Part shown: positions 1 through 7,657 of the stretch, in pieces | How positions within the stretch are numbered: the first letter of the stretch is position 1 | Layout of the letters: each line of letters starts with the position of its first letter | From: Gemmatimonadota bacterium | Lineage (GTDB): Bacteria; Gemmatimonadota; Gemmatimonadetes; Gemmatimonadales; GWC2-71-9 | Assembly: GCA_003169895.1 (NCBI GenBank) | Contig: PNAE01000004.1 | Span: 2,604-66,603 of the forward strand | Direction of reading: 5' to 3' | DNA: 64,000 bases | The notes under the pieces: generated by a model | The model's database searches: none | Told to the model about the DNA's origin: nothing | The model's input: only the letters and a program-made list of their open reading frames with translations | Translations under genes and position numbers: made by a program

Positions 1-22
1 GGGGGGGGGGGGGGGGGGGGGG
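1..22. other. homopolymer G run at the window edge
   Basis: 22 consecutive G at the first bases; likely a contig-end or two-colour sequencing artefact rather than biology. Confidence 0.6.
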
Positions 23-718
23 TATATGCCATTATGGCAGTGGAGTGAAGGAGTCTTGCCATCTGGACCGAGCCGATGCCGGTGCCAGCCACGTTGCATC
101 GGCCTATACTCCTATTTTGGGCCACAGCCACAGGGCTTTGTGGTCCTTGGGGTATTAGAATGGGCGCTGCTGCTGGACTTTTGTACCCTTCGGTGTTTGT
201 TCACCCTGTCCCTACCCTATACTACCGGACTCTTCTGGTACACTACTACTCACCACTCCTTACCTCAGTTGACCACTACTGTGACTACGGGTTTGGGAGC
301 TTTGGATTCCTGCTGGACGATTGTCTGGCTGTTGACCTGCCTGTCCCTACATCAAGGGGGGAGTTGTTGCCAATCCCCATGCATCCCGCCTAGCACTTAC
401 ACCGCAAGCGCATCATCGGGGGAGCCCTTCGCCTATTTATCGGTTTCCAGCGCCGGCTAGGCTACTGGCCCAGAGTCTTCCACCTGGGAGCCTCTGTCAC
501 ACGCTGCTCGAGCTCGACCCTTATGGGATGACTACCCCAGGATCTCCAATCGAGCCCCTGCACTGGACTACCGGGCATCAAGGCAAGGAGCGCCAAGGTC
601 CGGGTTTGCCAGCGTCAGGGGTGTGGGAAGGCTGCTTCTACTACTTGATACGGCTACCATTACCTAGAGGAAGGCATTAGAAACTTGCCGTTGTATGGTT
701 CATAAAGAAACGTACATA

Positions 719-3259
719 TCAGGAGAAGAAGTAGGTGCTCCCGATGACCTGGCTTACGTCGAGGGTGCCAGGCTGCGGCGGGACAAGCGACGGGTCTACA
801 GCCCCCCCCTGGGTCTCGAAATTAGCACCCAGGCTAGCGAGCGGATCGTGCTGGATATAGAGCTTCGCAAAGGCCCGGCGCGCTGCCTGTGCTACGACCT
901 CGCAGTCAGCAGCCAAAGTGCCGTAAGAGTCATGCACCATGGCGAAGCATTCGACTCCGTCGCTCGATGCTATTTGGACGGTCAGCATGAGTGCGGCAGC
1001 ATCAAGCGAGTGAATCACGTTGGCGGCAACCGACTGGATCTGCTTCTTGACATTGACCTGATCGGTTTCCTTGTACGCCCTTGGTCTGTACTCCTTGCCC
1101 GCGAGCATCGTGCGGATCTGATCTGAGGTCAGCGCGAAGGCTCTCTGTGTTATGCGAAATCCCGTCGCCGGGACAGTCCAGCTAGCACACTTGTTTTCCT
1201 CGGCAAGTGCTTTGACCTCCGCTTGTAGCCAATCCATGCACGCGAACGCTGACTTGACATGCTCCTCCAACGAGTCCCGGATGATCCGTGCCATGAAGGC
1301 ACACGCATCGTTGAGATCCGCGTTGTCTGGATCTCCGGTGAAATGCTCCTTGATAGTGGCGTAGTTGTCCAAGCCAACCAGGAACTCCCTTATCTGCTGT
1401 GTGAAGCCGTACTGCTTCGACCCGTACCCAAAGGTCATCGTTGGGCGTTTGGTCAGCTTCCGCGAGATGATGCCAGTCTTCGCATGTAGGCCGAGCCACA
1501 GACCAGCCAGCTTACTCCCGGCGTCCGCTTCGAGGGTGATTCGATCCAGCACGGTAGAAGCCACCAGCCGATAAATGTCGGCCGGTCTGTCTTGAGGAAC
1601 CACGTTGACCGCTCGTCCGATTCCCTCGTCGCGGAGAAGTGCTGCAAAATGCTGCAAACCGTTACAACTACCGTCCTGGCTGACCACAAGGGAGCCGACA
1701 TATTCTTTGTCTTGGTCGTTGGCACGGATCAACCCCGCCCACTCGAAACAGAACGCGAGGAACATCAGAGGTTTGTCAGCATCCATCCACCAGCGATGTT
1801 TGAAGGGGTCATCAGCCACTGCGATGATCGCTGTGGAGGCACCGTGAATGCACGCGATACGCTCATCGAGCGTCATCTGGGAAATCTTCTTGCCGTCCAG
1901 TGTCTCGCCCAGGCAGTTCGCCCCATGCACCGCCAAGTAGCGAGCGCCAGCTTCATCCACCGGCTTACCGACTGCGAAGGTCAGCAGCGCACGCGATAGG
2001 TCGTCTCCCTGCGGTGTGAGATAGGATGAAAGCGGATAGACTCTTCCCCTGAAATCGAACGAATGCGGGAAGTAGAACGCGGTCTCGTGTTGAAACTTCT
2101 CGGCCACCCCGAGTGTGTTGAAAAATGCCCGGCGCACCTGCTTCCGTTTCAGGTTCTCCACTACAACCGCGTGCTTGAGTCCACGCCACTGTTTGCGGCT
2201 TGCCTCATTGACTGCAATGTCGTCCGGCCTCGCCGGGTACACCTTGAGTTCAAGCTGTGGAATGCCAGCCATTCCGCCACCGCGCGCCTTCAGCTCAACG
2301 ACTACGTCAAGTACCTGCCGGTTTATTTTCCAAGAAGACTCTTGAAGTTTGTTCACCGTGTCATACGCGATGCGTGGGGCCGATTGCGGCTGTTTGTCCC
2401 GGCGCACCATTGGAAAAGAATCCCGCTGCTGAAAGCGAAACCCGCCACGGACAGGAGGATTGACAACGGCTCCATCAGTTCCAAGGTTCGCAGGCTCCCA
2501 CCGTAGTGGAGGAGCTACCATTGGTAACACGACCGGATGGAGGCCTTCGAGGGTGGCATTCGCCTCTTCAATCCACTCCTCAGTGTCATCCGTGGCAACG
2601 AGGTGCATGGTGCGCTTCAGTTTACGTCCTGATCGCTTGACGGTCTCTACCACCTCGACCATGCCTGTTGTCTCCCGCAGCATATCAATGAGCTTGATGC
2701 CGACAAGCAAACGGTGTTCATCGGACATGGTCAGGTCTGAACAGTCGATCCCCGCGTACCTCATGCTCGCATCCATGCTGTCGGACATATGGCGGTAGTT
2801 GTTCGTGTGGAAGGACCGCACCTTGTAGTCGAACAGGTGTCGTGCGTCCTTCTTGAAGCGCCGGTAACGGAGTTCATCAAGGAGCATGCCGGAGAGGGCA
2901 CGTGCTATATCGTTGAGTTTGCGTTCGGTCCCAAGTTGGTCGAGAACCACCTTGAGCGTGAGATACGTCACTACCTCCGCGCCAACCAACTTGCACCATT
3001 TTGCTGCCGTGTGCCGCTTGCCACCTCCTTGCCCGGAGGGCTTAGCAACCATTGCGTCTATGGCCTTCTCCAAGCACTCACGCTTGATCGCCAGACGGAG
3101 CAACGCGTGCTCTGCACCTGTTGAGGCCGCAGCGCCTTTCTCACGTGCAGCGTCAAGCCGCCTCCGAAAGCGTGCTACTCCGTCAGCGTGTGCTACGTCC
3201 TCAAGCTCCTTCTGGCGCTTGAGAAGTTCTGTCCACGCAGCCTCCTCTGGACGGATCAT
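719..3259 (-). CDS. T7-like single-subunit DNA-directed RNA polymerase (phage type)
   Basis: Motif A QDGSCNGLQHFAALLRDEGIGRAVN, motif B RKLTKRPTMTFGYGSKQYGF, motif C AMVHDSYGT; aromatic C-terminus. Start placed at ATG 3259 (ATGA overlap with the integrase stop) rather than ORF start 3487. Confidence 0.96.
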   Translation of the reverse strand: MIRPEEAAWTELLKRQKELEDVAHADGVARFRRRLDAAREKGAAASTGAEHALLRLAIKRECLEKAIDAMVAKPSGQGGGKRHTAAKWCKLVGAEVVTYLTLKVVLDQLGTERKLNDIARALSGMLLDELRYRRFKKDARHLFDYKVRSFHTNNYRHMSDSMDASMRYAGIDCSDLTMSDEHRLLVGIKLIDMLRETTGMVEVVETVKRSGRKLKRTMHLVATDDTEEWIEEANATLEGLHPVVLPMVAPPLRWEPANLGTDGAVVNPPVRGGFRFQQRDSFPMVRRDKQPQSAPRIAYDTVNKLQESSWKINRQVLDVVVELKARGGGMAGIPQLELKVYPARPDDIAVNEASRKQWRGLKHAVVVENLKRKQVRRAFFNTLGVAEKFQHETAFYFPHSFDFRGRVYPLSSYLTPQGDDLSRALLTFAVGKPVDEAGARYLAVHGANCLGETLDGKKISQMTLDERIACIHGASTAIIAVADDPFKHRWWMDADKPLMFLAFCFEWAGLIRANDQDKEYVGSLVVSQDGSCNGLQHFAALLRDEGIGRAVNVVPQDRPADIYRLVASTVLDRITLEADAGSKLAGLWLGLHAKTGIISRKLTKRPTMTFGYGSKQYGFTQQIREFLVGLDNYATIKEHFTGDPDNADLNDACAFMARIIRDSLEEHVKSAFACMDWLQAEVKALAEENKCASWTVPATGFRITQRAFALTSDQIRTMLAGKEYRPRAYKETDQVNVKKQIQSVAANVIHSLDAAALMLTVQIASSDGVECFAMVHDSYGTLAADCEVVAQAARRAFAKLYIQHDPLASLGANFETQGGAVDPSLVPPQPGTLDVSQVIGSTYFFS

Positions 3260-4923
3260 CGTGCCGTCACCCGCTGCTTCACGGTGTGCTTCGTTGCCGA
3301 TCGCTTCGCCGGTTTGCCCTTGGGCCAGGCATAGGTCAGCGAAGATTCGCCACCGTGTTTCCAATGGAATGTCATCTGTCCGTCTGTGGCGTCTACCACA
3401 ATGCCGGAGAACAGTTGACGTAACAACGCGTTGACCACAGCCCGGTCTATCTCTGGCTGACTCAGCGCCTCCTCCAGCTCCTCGCATTTCTTGGCGACGA
3501 GCGCGCCAGAAGTCTCCGTCTGTTGCCTGCGGAGATTCGCCAGGCGCTGACGCATTGGCGCATCCTGACTCTCAAGCTCGACTAGTCGCTCTTCTAGCGC
3601 CACGCTCGACGTGCCGCGCTGCTGTCCGCGCGCAATAGCGGTTACGACGTTCTCTATCCACTCTGGCAGTTCAAGGAGGATCGTTTCGAGGTTGTCGATT
3701 TCCCGGTCGATCTTGACAGCATCGGCACTCTTGCCGGAGGGAACGGTATTGAGTAACGCTGTCGCTTCGCGGAGGAAGGCGGTCTCAAGCGGGCCATATC
3801 GTTGTACTCGATACTTGCACCCGGCTCCTTCTCGGGCCTTGGAGCAAACCAGATACGTGCCGCCCTTCGGAGGTTCGCCCTTGTTGACTCTCACCAGTGA
3901 TCCGGCGCACAGTGGACACCGGCCAAGTCCGCCGAACAGATTACGCACGACTCCAGAGGCCGCGTGCTTGCCTCGCAGTGGCGTAGCTGTCTGCTGTAGC
4001 GACTCGACACGCGCAAAGTCGTCGGCGTCGATAACGGCCGGGTAATAGTCTGGGATCGCAGCGAGCGGCTTGCGTTGTTTCTTGCCCGCCTTCGTATACG
4101 TGAAGGTGTGCGGCGTCAGCGTGCCGACGACGGTTGACGACTTGAGAATCTTGTCGATGTAGGAGCGATGCCACCGCTCGCCACGCCCGAATACCGGCAC
4201 TTTCTCCTCATTCAAGGATCGGGCGATCGCGTGCTTTCCGATGCCTCGCAGCGTGTCCTTGAAGATGCGCCGGACAATAGCGGCACGTTCCCGATGCACT
4301 TTGATCTTGCCGGTTGCCTTGTCGAGCCAAAGCCACCCCGGAACTTTCGCCGTCAATTTTTCGCCAGCTTCGATCCGTCCCCGTTTGCCTACCCATGCCG
4401 CACTGAGTCGTGACGCCTTCATCTTCGACTCTTCAGCCCCCCGCATGTGAATTACAAACGCCATCAGGAAGCTCATGGGATCGTCGTCTAGACGCTCTTC
4501 AGTGTAGACCTGGTTATCGGACAGCGTTACGACGGTGATTCCTGCCTCGCACAGATTCTCCATGACTCGCACCGCCTTGCGAGCCGTCCGTCTGCTGATA
4601 CGGTCCAGCGATTCCACCAGGAGATAACTTCCGCGCTCCACCAGGCCTGTATTGACAGCAGCGAGGAACGCGCCGAGCTGTCCAGTCTCTAGGTTGCGGC
4701 CTTGGTAGGCGCTTACTCCTAGATCCTTGAACGTCAGGCGGTTATCCAGGCCGAGACCGTGGCGGCTCGCGTAGGCTTCCGCTAGCTGCGTTTGTCGGCG
4801 CTGGCTATCGCCCTTCGACTGCTCCGGTGTGGAGAAGCGAAGGTAGCTGTACGCCTTGGGCCTAGCCGTGGTCACTCGGGCGTTACCTGGCCGACCGCTT
4901 GGCTGGCTTCGCCGCTCGTTCAC
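3256..4923 (-). CDS. large serine recombinase / integrase
   Basis: N-terminal resolvase motif YLRFSTPEQSKGDSQRRQ, recombinase domain, zinc ribbon CPLC...YLVCSKAREGAGC, coiled-coil region, basic C-terminus. Confidence 0.93.
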   Translation of the reverse strand: MNERRSQPSGRPGNARVTTARPKAYSYLRFSTPEQSKGDSQRRQTQLAEAYASRHGLGLDNRLTFKDLGVSAYQGRNLETGQLGAFLAAVNTGLVERGSYLLVESLDRISRRTARKAVRVMENLCEAGITVVTLSDNQVYTEERLDDDPMSFLMAFVIHMRGAEESKMKASRLSAAWVGKRGRIEAGEKLTAKVPGWLWLDKATGKIKVHRERAAIVRRIFKDTLRGIGKHAIARSLNEEKVPVFGRGERWHRSYIDKILKSSTVVGTLTPHTFTYTKAGKKQRKPLAAIPDYYPAVIDADDFARVESLQQTATPLRGKHAASGVVRNLFGGLGRCPLCAGSLVRVNKGEPPKGGTYLVCSKAREGAGCKYRVQRYGPLETAFLREATALLNTVPSGKSADAVKIDREIDNLETILLELPEWIENVVTAIARGQQRGTSSVALEERLVELESQDAPMRQRLANLRRQQTETSGALVAKKCEELEEALSQPEIDRAVVNALLRQLFSGIVVDATDGQMTFHWKHGGESSLTYAWPKGKPAKRSATKHTVKQRVTAR

Positions 4924-5095
4924 CAGTTAGCCCTTGCTTCTTTCCGGCCTGGCGTATGAGCCAATCCACATACCACGCGAGAGAGATAGGCGCGCCAAGC
5001 TCATCCTCTTTCTGAGCCTTGAGCACCTTCAATAGCTCGCTGGATTCGGGCGAGATAAGTGTAGATAGCTGCACCTTATTCCTGCTGACTGCCAT
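4883..5095 (-). CDS. small ribbon-helix-helix-like DNA-binding protein (candidate repressor or recombination directionality factor)
   Basis: MAVSRNKVQLSTLISPESSELLKVLKAQKEDELGAPISLAWYVDWLIRQAGKK; ATG at 5095 preceded by strong SD AAGGGAGG (5109-5102); overlaps the integrase start. Confidence 0.55.
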   Translation of the reverse strand: MAVSRNKVQLSTLISPESSELLKVLKAQKEDELGAPISLAWYVDWLIRQAGKKQGLTGERAAKPAKRSAR

Positions 5096-5123
5096 GCCAG
5101 GCCTCCCTTGAGGTGACGCCACA

Positions 5124-5152
5124 AGCATAGTGGGGGTACAGTGCAAGCGCAA
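5124..5152 (-). promoter_or_regulatory. predicted sigma70-like promoter of the RHH-integrase-RNAP operon
   Basis: TTGCGC (5152-5147), 17-nt spacer, TATGCT (5129-5124) on the minus strand, just upstream of the SD/ATG at 5109/5095. Confidence 0.5.
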
Positions 5153-5501
5153 GCGATGGGCAGGCGCTTCGCTAGTAGCCTCCCGCTCTCGCTGGCTTCC
5201 CTGTGGCTCCTGCCCGGTCGGAGGGGCTTCGGGATACTCTCCTGTCCACCGGAGGGCTTGCGGATGGTGCTTGAGCCTACTGCATAGGCGCGTGATGCTA
5301 TCTCGCCTGCCCGCTCCCTTGCGCCAGTCAAAGGGGCGACTCCCAGGACAGCCGGAACGCCGCACCTTTGCCTTCGCAGGTGGCAAATAATCGGGGTGGT
5401 GTTCTGGGAGTAGATACGCCGGCATGGAGTCGCCGTAGCTAGGCCGGTCGAAGTCTGTAGCGGCATCGGAGAACAGCTCCACCGTGGCATAGCTAGGCAT
5501 T

Positions 5502-5660
5502 TTAGCTCTCCCCTTCCTCAGTCATCCGCATGAGAAGTGGGGCGTCAGGATAGACCTTGCGAGCGGCGACCAGCCACACGTCGGACCAGTGACCAAACGT
5601 CAGCAGTCCGGAGGCACAGTACCAGTAGCCATCGACAAGAGCGTAGCCGTGGGCATCCAT
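5502..5660 (-). CDS. small hypothetical phage-type protein (52 aa, below the cutoff of the supplied ORF track)
   Basis: ORF MDAHGYALVDGYWYCASGLLTFGHWSDVWLVAARKVYPDAPLLMRMTEEGES*; its ATG overlaps the preceding stop as TAATG. Confidence 0.6.
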   Translation of the reverse strand: MDAHGYALVDGYWYCASGLLTFGHWSDVWLVAARKVYPDAPLLMRMTEEGES

Positions 5661-6136
5661 TACTCGGCCCGTCCTTCTAGCCGGTCCACTAGCTCCTGAT
5701 ACCCTTCCTCTTGCATGACGTTGTAGACCGCAGCGTAGGCAGCCTGGACCTCTATCGTCGTCGGCTTCTCTCCCAGCTCGTCGGCGTAGGCATCTTCATT
5801 CTGGCAGCCCAGCACGTACACCAGCGCGGACAGGGTGTAGATAAAGGCGCTGTCCGCATCCTGTTCCAGCCGCTCCCGTAGCTCGTCCGCGTCGGTAATC
5901 TCCACAGCGTCTACGGCATCCCGCAGGTAGCCAAGTAGGGCCTGCTCCGTCTCGTAGGCCTGCCGGCAGGCGAGCTGATAGGCTACATGGTCCTTCCATG
6001 ACATCGAGCTACCGGCGTGGTCGTACCGGGCATCCCGCTCGATTACGGACCATGCCGTTGTCCGCTCCTCGGAGGTGGGGCGGGTAGGCGTCGTTTGGCT
6101 GCTGAGGCTGGGAGTCACTCGGCACCGTCCTTCCAT
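5660..6136 (-). CDS. acidic hypothetical early-region protein (158 aa)
   Basis: ORF with upstream GAGG SD-like sequence; strongly acidic C-terminal ~114 aa; overlaps neighbours on both sides. Confidence 0.7.
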   Translation of the reverse strand: MEGRCRVTPSLSSQTTPTRPTSEERTTAWSVIERDARYDHAGSSMSWKDHVAYQLACRQAYETEQALLGYLRDAVDAVEITDADELRERLEQDADSAFIYTLSALVYVLGCQNEDAYADELGEKPTTIEVQAAYAAVYNVMQEEGYQELVDRLEGRAE

Positions 6137-6372
6137 TCGTCGCCCTCTTCCGGCAAGGCATAATCCTCGATATTGAACGGGACAGGCTCGCCCAGCAGCT
6201 CCCGCTCCAGTAGCTCCCGCAGGAAAGCCAGCTCTAGCAAGCGGTGGGCAAGGCTCAACGTTCCTGCCCGCTTCTTGTAACTGGCGAGAATCATTTCGAT
6301 TTCCTCGCGGGTATGGTCGCGGACAGTCTGCATGTAGAGGCGGGCTAGAAAGCGTTCATTGATCTCTTGCAT
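6115..6372 (-). CDS. hypothetical early-region protein (85 aa)
   Basis: ORF with SD GGAGAG upstream of ATG 6372; helical, acidic C-terminus; first minus-strand gene inside the element edge. Confidence 0.7.
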   Translation of the reverse strand: MQEINERFLARLYMQTVRDHTREEIEMILASYKKRAGTLSLAHRLLELAFLRELLERELLGEPVPFNIEDYALPEEGDEWKDGAE

Positions 6373-6378
6373 GGTGTC

Positions 6379-6420
6379 TCTCCAGTAAGCAAAGGTGAAT
6401 CGCTAGTGGTCCACTGGAGA
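6379..6420. repeat. inverted repeat TCTCCAGT...ACTGGAGA upstream of the first element gene
   Basis: Perfect 8-bp arms 6379-6386 and 6413-6420. Confidence 0.6.
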
Positions 6421-6493
6421 CGATGCGATACGCGAGAGACGTGCCACGGTGCGAGAGTTTCAGTAAGAGGTTGAGATATAAGAGGATGACACG

Positions 6494-6724
6494 ATGAGCA
6501 CCGCAGGAACACTAGCGATACACTGGCGCATTGTGCGAGGATACCGCAGCGTATGCGCCACTAATCGAAAAGGGACAGATGCCAGCATGTACGTAAACGA
6601 ACGTCCGGCAATTGATCGGCGGGGAAGGACGGCTAGGCAGCGACTACCAGGCGGATCGAGGGCAAGAAATCAGAGGTGCAAGAGGCTCGAAACAGGACCA
6701 GTGAAACCGGTGGCGGCTAACTGA
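6494..6724 (+). CDS. possible small basic protein (76 aa)
   Basis: ORF with SD-like AGAGGA (6481-6486) 7 nt before ATG; no recognisable domain. Confidence 0.25.
   Translation: MSTAGTLAIHWRIVRGYRSVCATNRKGTDASMYVNERPAIDRRGRTARQRLPGGSRARNQRCKRLETGPVKPVAAN
6524..6560. repeat. inverted repeat TGGCGCAT...ATGCGCCA
   Basis: Perfect 8-bp arms 6524-6531 and 6553-6560, 21-nt spacer. Confidence 0.6.
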
Positions 6725-6800
6725 CGGTATGACAACGAGTTACAGAGGGGTCCTATCGTCCATAACGTCCTGCTCATCGGCCCACCCGGCGCCGGCAAGA
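6722..6800. other. element/chromosome junction (attachment site region) in comM
   Basis: comM homology begins at His-Asn codons ~6761 ([14 protein letters not shown]); upstream in-frame sequence is unrelated and hits TGA at 6722. Confidence 0.7.
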
Positions 6801-7657
6801 CCATGCTGGCTCGGCGCCTGCCCAGTATCCTGCCATCGCTCACGCTGGCGGAGGCGCTGGACGTCACGCGGATCCACAGCGTGGCTGGACTGTTGCCGGC
6901 AGGGCAGGCGCTGGTGTCGCGGCGTCCGTTCCGGGCGCCGCATCATACGGTGAGCTACGCCGGACTCATCGGTGGCGGCGCGATTCCGCGGCCGGGTGAG
7001 GTGTCACTGGCGCACCATGGGGTGCTGTTTCTCGACGAAGTCGCGGAGCTGCCGAGCAACGTGCTCGAGGTGCTCCGGCAACCCCTCGAGGATGGACACG
7101 TCACGATCTCGCGTGCCGCGATGACGCTGGGATATCCGGCGCGGTTCCTGCTGATCGCGAGCATGAACCCCTGTCCCTGCGGGTTCCTGGGCGACACCGC
7201 GCGACGGTGCTGTTGCCCGCCGATGGCGGTGCAGCGCTACCGCGCCAGGATCTCGGGCCCGCTGCTCGATCGGGTAGACATCCACCTCAACGTGCCGCCG
7301 GTGGCATACGACGATCTCGCGGCCCGAGCGCCGGCGGAGTCGAGCGCGGTCGTGCGGGCGCGGGTGGAGGCGGCGCGCGATCGTCAGCTGCACCGGTTCA
7401 GGCAGGTGCCGGGGATGTACGCCAATGCGCACATGGGGCCGCGCGAGCTTGGGCGGTACGTGCGCGTCGATGCGGCGACGGAGGCGGTGCTCAAGTCGGC
7501 GATAGTGAAACTGGGATTGTCAGCGCGAGCGTATCATCGGGTGCTCAAGCTGGCGCGGACGCTGGCCGATCTCGAAGGCGTCGAGGACGTGGGGCCGGGG
7601 CATGTGGCGGAGGCGATTCAGTACCGGGTGCTGGATCGGGGGACGGCGGTGGCGTGA
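6761..7657 (+). pseudogene. comM: ComM/YifB Mg-chelatase-like AAA+ protein, 3' fragment beginning at Walker A
   Basis: [67 protein letters not shown]-terminal domain missing from the window. Confidence 0.93.

Follow-up and report, generated by a model that had tools for sequence, protein, structure and literature searches.

We asked whether a T7-type RNA polymerase gene that lies directly behind a large serine integrase gene in a bacterial chromosome marks a T7-like prophage, and, if so, how its integrase compares with those found beside other polymerases of this type. Textbooks present T7-like phages as lytic viruses, and the stable lysogeny of their relatives is still debated. For LUZ100 no stable lysogens were obtained (PMC10134795), and the integration of T7-like cyanophages was described as only transient (PMC8776855). 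Here, the window denotes the whole stretch of DNA analysed (64,000 nucleotides), which belongs to contig C13; the features discussed below, in the window and on contig C6 of the same assembly, are collected in Table 1.

Table 1. Features of the element and of the interrupted host gene (window positions unless a contig is given).
Feature	Position	Strand	Remarks
Run of 22 G beside the NN scaffold join	1..22		Left limit of securely contiguous sequence
T7-type single-subunit RNA polymerase	719..3259	-	846 aa, complete, catalytic residues intact
Large serine integrase	3256..4923	-	555 aa, complete; stop overlaps polymerase start as ATGA
70-aa ORF directly upstream of integrase	4883..5095	-	No family match
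158-aa ORF	5660..6136	-	No family match; overlaps next upstream ORF
85-aa ORF	6115..6372	-	No family match; first gene inside attR
Leader between attR and first ORF	6373..6763		Inferred early promoter site
attR core AACGTCCT	6764..6771	+	Common to attL at C6:4068-4075
Host comM, C-terminal part, interrupted	6772..7657	+	PF01078
Host comM, N-terminal part	C6:4068-4771	-	PF13541

The polymerase and integrase genes

The initial annotation had described an RNA polymerase with its catalytic motifs directly after a large serine recombinase, the stop and the start codon being fused as ATGA, and this description held in each part: both genes are complete, the catalytic residues are invariant and the overlap is present. 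The polymerase matched the phrog_414 'RNA polymerase' profile over residues 11-846 (profile positions 3-816 of 816, E 1.5e-206) and PF00940 (E 2.8e-87), and solved structures of the T7 RNA polymerase (PDB) matched its residues 12-845 (E about 4e-95). In an alignment of the window polymerase with ten phage polymerases (11 sequences), D529 (in DGSCNGLQHF), K604 and Y612 (in RKLTKRPTMTFGYGSK) and D777 (in HDSYG) did not vary, and the start at 3259 agreed with the N-termini of the aligned phage enzymes. A single-subunit T7-type polymerase gene of this kind is one of the features by which a T7-like phage is recognised. In the ~700 bases 3' of the gene (window 23-718), no convincing gene was seen on the phage strand.

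The integrase contains Resolvase (PF00239), Recombinase (PF07508) and Zn_ribbon_recom (PF13408) domains, is matched by the phrog_95 integrase profile (E 3.7e-72), and carries the motifs YLRFS and SLDRISR as well as the zinc-ribbon cysteines, so that every element of a large serine integrase, including the catalytic serine motif, was found. Two starts are candidates, GTG 4923 and GTG 4875, the second of which is located just past the end of the upstream ORF. At the junction, the TGA of the integrase (3258-3256) and the ATG of the polymerase (3259-3257) overlap by four bases.

Family searches of the ORFs upstream of the integrase recognised no repressor or directionality factor. By position only, the 70-aa ORF is a candidate directionality factor or regulator; its predicted helical structure had low confidence and led to no informative fold match. 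The MarR/HTH regulator and tRNA-Leu site of temperate phages of the LUZ100/Pasto type were likewise not seen here, there being no family match among the upstream ORFs and no tRNA nearby, and a sigma-70 scan returned no promoter in the leader.

Insertion into comM and the other end of the element

Alignment of both parts of the host comM gene to the comM of congeners, in which it is uninterrupted, placed the breakpoints at an 8-bp core, AACGTCCT. When the host flanks were joined at this core, they formed a single open comM frame that ran across the Walker A motif and contained no internal stop. The joined flanks restore comM, and thus the DNA between them constitutes either a single insertion into comM or insertions in tandem. 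As expected of a temperate phage, both att junctions could be defined in the host chromosome, although the site is comM and not tRNA-Leu. The GC content was 57.6-58.3% in all three recovered pieces of the element, as compared with 66.7-67.0% in the host.

On C6, the product of the ORF at positions 3-1238 was recognised as an internal virion protein by phrog_6651 (E 6e-37). Within the phage collection it matched MW202733 best (31%, E 4e-46), the same record that gave the best match to the polymerase (38%), and its homologues occur in T7-like cyanophages, roseophages and pelagiphages; a T7-type virion gene is thus present, provided that C6 and C13 represent one element. It is followed by a tail-fibre-like gene, for which the match to the T7 tail fibre was only weak. 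The integrase and polymerase genes occupy the right, early end and the virion and tail-fibre-like genes the left, late end, and all of them are co-directional, as in MW202733. The exception to this one-directional, early-to-late order is formed by two ORFs at the attL end (C6:2785-3950, minus strand; 199 aa and 157 aa, the latter with membrane-like stretches), which oppose the late genes. They matched no Pfam family and gave no strong match to a phage family, and they are candidates for lysogenic-conversion or exclusion genes.

These results support the T7-like prophage proposed in the initial annotation: comM is split at a shared core, the polymerase and the virion protein share MW202733 as nearest record, phage genes other than the polymerase were recovered (the virion protein on C6), and no break was found between 719 and 6760, the sequence from 719 to 7657 containing zero Ns.

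Three genomes of the same phylum (L280, L281 and L282), which gave no match to the window polymerase, were also seen to encode remote homologues of the C6 virion protein; these homologues probably belong to other podovirus-type prophages. The ORF C13:1247-1882 was considered as a head-assembly gene and rejected, its match being weak and limited to 24 residues and no phage relative of the ORF being found.

The missing middle and the alternative readings

The connection between C6 and C13 rests on comM and on shared relatives, not on sequence. An NN (C13:2602-2603) stands immediately to the left of window base 1 and, together with the G run, takes up C13:2602-2625, while on C6 the virion ORF is cut at the contig end; the assembly lacks the middle of the prophage, which would hold the DNA polymerase, the portal and presumably the capsid and terminase genes. 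Because of this absence, no T7-like DNA polymerase or portal was found: DNA_pol_A matched only once in the assembly, at a chromosomal gene that we took as the host PolA, and a T7-type portal was matched neither in the assembly nor in the control genomes. The expectation of further T7-like genes was borne out for the internal virion protein, and the prophage is possibly incomplete.

The ends of C6 and C13 that face the gap finish in a short repeat common to the end of a non-phage contig. This repeat, TCACGAAATGGGGTACAGAGCA, was observed, whole or in part, at the left end of C13, the left end of C6, the right end of C1 and at C8:505052, and it probably represents the terminus of an insertion sequence. 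We also considered it as a promoter of the phage polymerase, and rejected this because its orientations relative to phage transcription are opposite on C6 and C13 and because it is found in C8 and at the end of C1, a non-phage contig, as well. In the 13 kb recovered, repeated phage promoters were no more frequent than in shuffled sequence. The low-GC ends of C2 and C3, examined as the possible missing middle, were set aside, their longest ORFs not being phage-like by eye.

With the middle missing, an assembly break is indistinguishable from a deletion, for which an insertion sequence may have been responsible. In the latter case the locus would be a defective remnant of a T7-like phage in comM, whose middle was later removed by an insertion-sequence event so that the integrase-polymerase operon remained on one side, and a few late genes with a truncated virion gene on the other. 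The repeat at both gap-facing ends, with its resemblance to an insertion-sequence end, the cut of the virion ORF at this repeat, and the absence of a phage DNA polymerase or portal from the rest of the assembly are what such a remnant would leave. However, repeats are also places where assemblies break, and a middle contig of lower GC may just have been lost; moreover, the polymerase, the integrase and the att core are intact, with no visible decay. We regard a remnant as a real possibility, but on balance a doubtful one.

Alternatively, two unrelated insertions may have occurred at the same comM site, namely a serine-integrase island with a captured polymerase and a second phage that brought the virion genes of C6. 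Serine integrases are mobile, no sequence links C6 to C13 and no close relative of the integrase-polymerase pair was found, all of which would agree with two events; yet the polymerase and the virion protein share their nearest phage record, GC is equal in all pieces, the genes are co-directional and one precise att core joins both flanks, and we consider this explanation improbable. A misjoin of phage and host reads near 6760, or between integrase and polymerase, is extremely unlikely, for although the NN just left of the window proves that joins exist in this assembly, the region from comM to the polymerase has no N, both comM junctions have the same core and rejoin into one open frame, as a random misjoin would not, and the integrase and polymerase genes overlap with both frames open.

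Our preferred reading, which we hold to be highly probable, is that the locus represents the integrase end of a temperate T7-like (autographivirus-type) podovirus whose own large serine integrase inserted it into comM of the host. The integrase would have acted on attP, situated 5' of its operon, and on attB in comM, a recombination that the anatomy of the junctions supports. Early in infection, a single message made by the host RNA polymerase from the leader onwards would cover the small upstream genes, the integrase and the phage polymerase, translation of the polymerase would be coupled to that of the integrase via reinitiation at the ATGA, and the phage polymerase would then transcribe the replication and virion genes. 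The attR is located upstream of the whole operon, so that the operon stays physically intact in the prophage, and silencing would consequently have to act on the operon directly; lysogeny would then depend on a regulator that represses the operon or its promoters.

Comparison with other polymerase loci and known phages

The integrase-polymerase pair was sought elsewhere from both sides. Loci with T7-type polymerases were drawn from GTDB genomes, IMG/VR and INPHARED, 226 of them were treed with the window polymerase, and profiles for both integrase classes were run across their flanks. A tyrosine integrase was found near 94 of these 226 other loci (87 upstream, seven elsewhere nearby) and a large serine integrase near none; many of the flanks searched are short, so the absence of any integrase from a given locus means little. 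The contrast of integrase classes beside T7-type polymerases is clear. From the other side, 80 IMG/VR loci were taken whose large serine integrases are nearest to that of the window (1.1 Mb); no T7-type polymerase was present in their examined flanks, where the control recovered the serine integrase in 80/80. There was no further match to the polymerase in 394 other genomes of the same phylum. When the window polymerase or integrase was used alone as a query, IMG/VR gave no match; alignments were needed.

Small serine recombinases were present in two flanks of the 226. One of them, a resolvase-type gene beside the polymerase gene of a Mesorhizobium escarrei locus (L066:9091-9759), is flanked on one side by an ORF and on the other by an ORF fragment, the two being mutually similar and MarR-like in appearance; this recombinase is possibly an independent insertion into the same slot.

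In the tree, the window polymerase fell into an 8-row clade together with the IMG/VR contigs L123, L124 and L210 and with MW202733, a phage with a tyrosine integrase (FastTree, SH-like 100). The simplest reading is that a serine integrase replaced a tyrosine integrase in a conserved slot upstream of the polymerase gene, as had been suggested in the initial annotation. The clade shared with MW202733 and the lack of large serine integrases at the 226 loci argue for the replacement, whereas its direction and date are what we infer, the swap being undatable because the immediate relatives are too short upstream. We found no relevant description of a serine-integrase T7-like phage in the literature; our coverage was incomplete and an earlier description is possible. 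A more specific proposal, that the lineage exchanged its tyrosine integrase for a comM-targeting serine integrase translationally fused to the polymerase, and that the intact operon of the lysogen is silenced by a control other than the MarR/tRNA-Leu type, is offered tentatively, as our own judgement leans slightly towards doubt.

As we read it, the locus is an integrated T7-like copy, each of whose junctions could be placed at the 8-bp core. It suggests that a T7-like integration module can switch recombinase class yet keep its slot upstream of the polymerase gene, and it offers an attP/attB pair and a polymerase with which the silencing of a self-amplifying polymerase could be studied.

Among the known systems, MW202733 (Podoviridae sp. 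ctgrD200, Manatee Spring, 45,384 bp) resembles the window element in its early-to-late order, but has a tyrosine integrase (PF00589) ~5 kb from its polymerase gene, and its record contains no report of chromosomal integration. In LUZ100, Pasto, Paadamvirus RHEph01, vB_BbrP_BB8, Limnohabitans phage YIMV22061 and Roseobacter phage CRP-125, the integrase gene is located upstream of the T7-type polymerase gene, on the same strand and in the early region, as in the window. All six have a tyrosine integrase, whereas the enzyme of the window element is a large serine integrase, and they often have a MarR/HTH regulator and a tRNA-Leu nearby, in place of which the window has a comM site and no recognised regulator. 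The integrase and polymerase genes of LUZ100 have a terminator and a phage promoter between them (PMC10134795), in contrast to the 4-base overlap described here. A tRNA-Leu lies between the two genes in Pasto, Lo5R7ANS and YIMV22061, and just upstream of the polymerase in several chromosomal copies. If this tRNA-Leu is the attachment site, integration parts the polymerase from its upstream genes; in relatives with an attachment site between integrase and polymerase the operon is split, unlike that of the window.

Close spacing of the two genes is found with tyrosine integrases as well. In 69 cases with a tyrosine integrase close upstream of the polymerase, the median distance from the end of the integrase to the polymerase homology was 322 bp, and nine ended within ~75 bp of it. 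The locus L067 (Pseudomonadota MAG contig JAKQEE010000370.1, 5250-5330) has the same ATGA overlap as the window, but with a tyrosine integrase. The proposed tie between integrase and polymerase synthesis is hence plausible in view of the overlap, and is not specific to the integrase swap. The serine integrases of Xanthomonas Rb1, Burkholderia JC1, the Escherichia YbcK type and SPbeta YokA have the same resolvase, recombinase and zinc-ribbon order, and are at most about 35% identical to the window integrase. A survey of temperate T7-like phages reportedly appeared in Virology in 2022. Temperate T7-like phages are already known, and a serine integrase at comM is a new variation on them.
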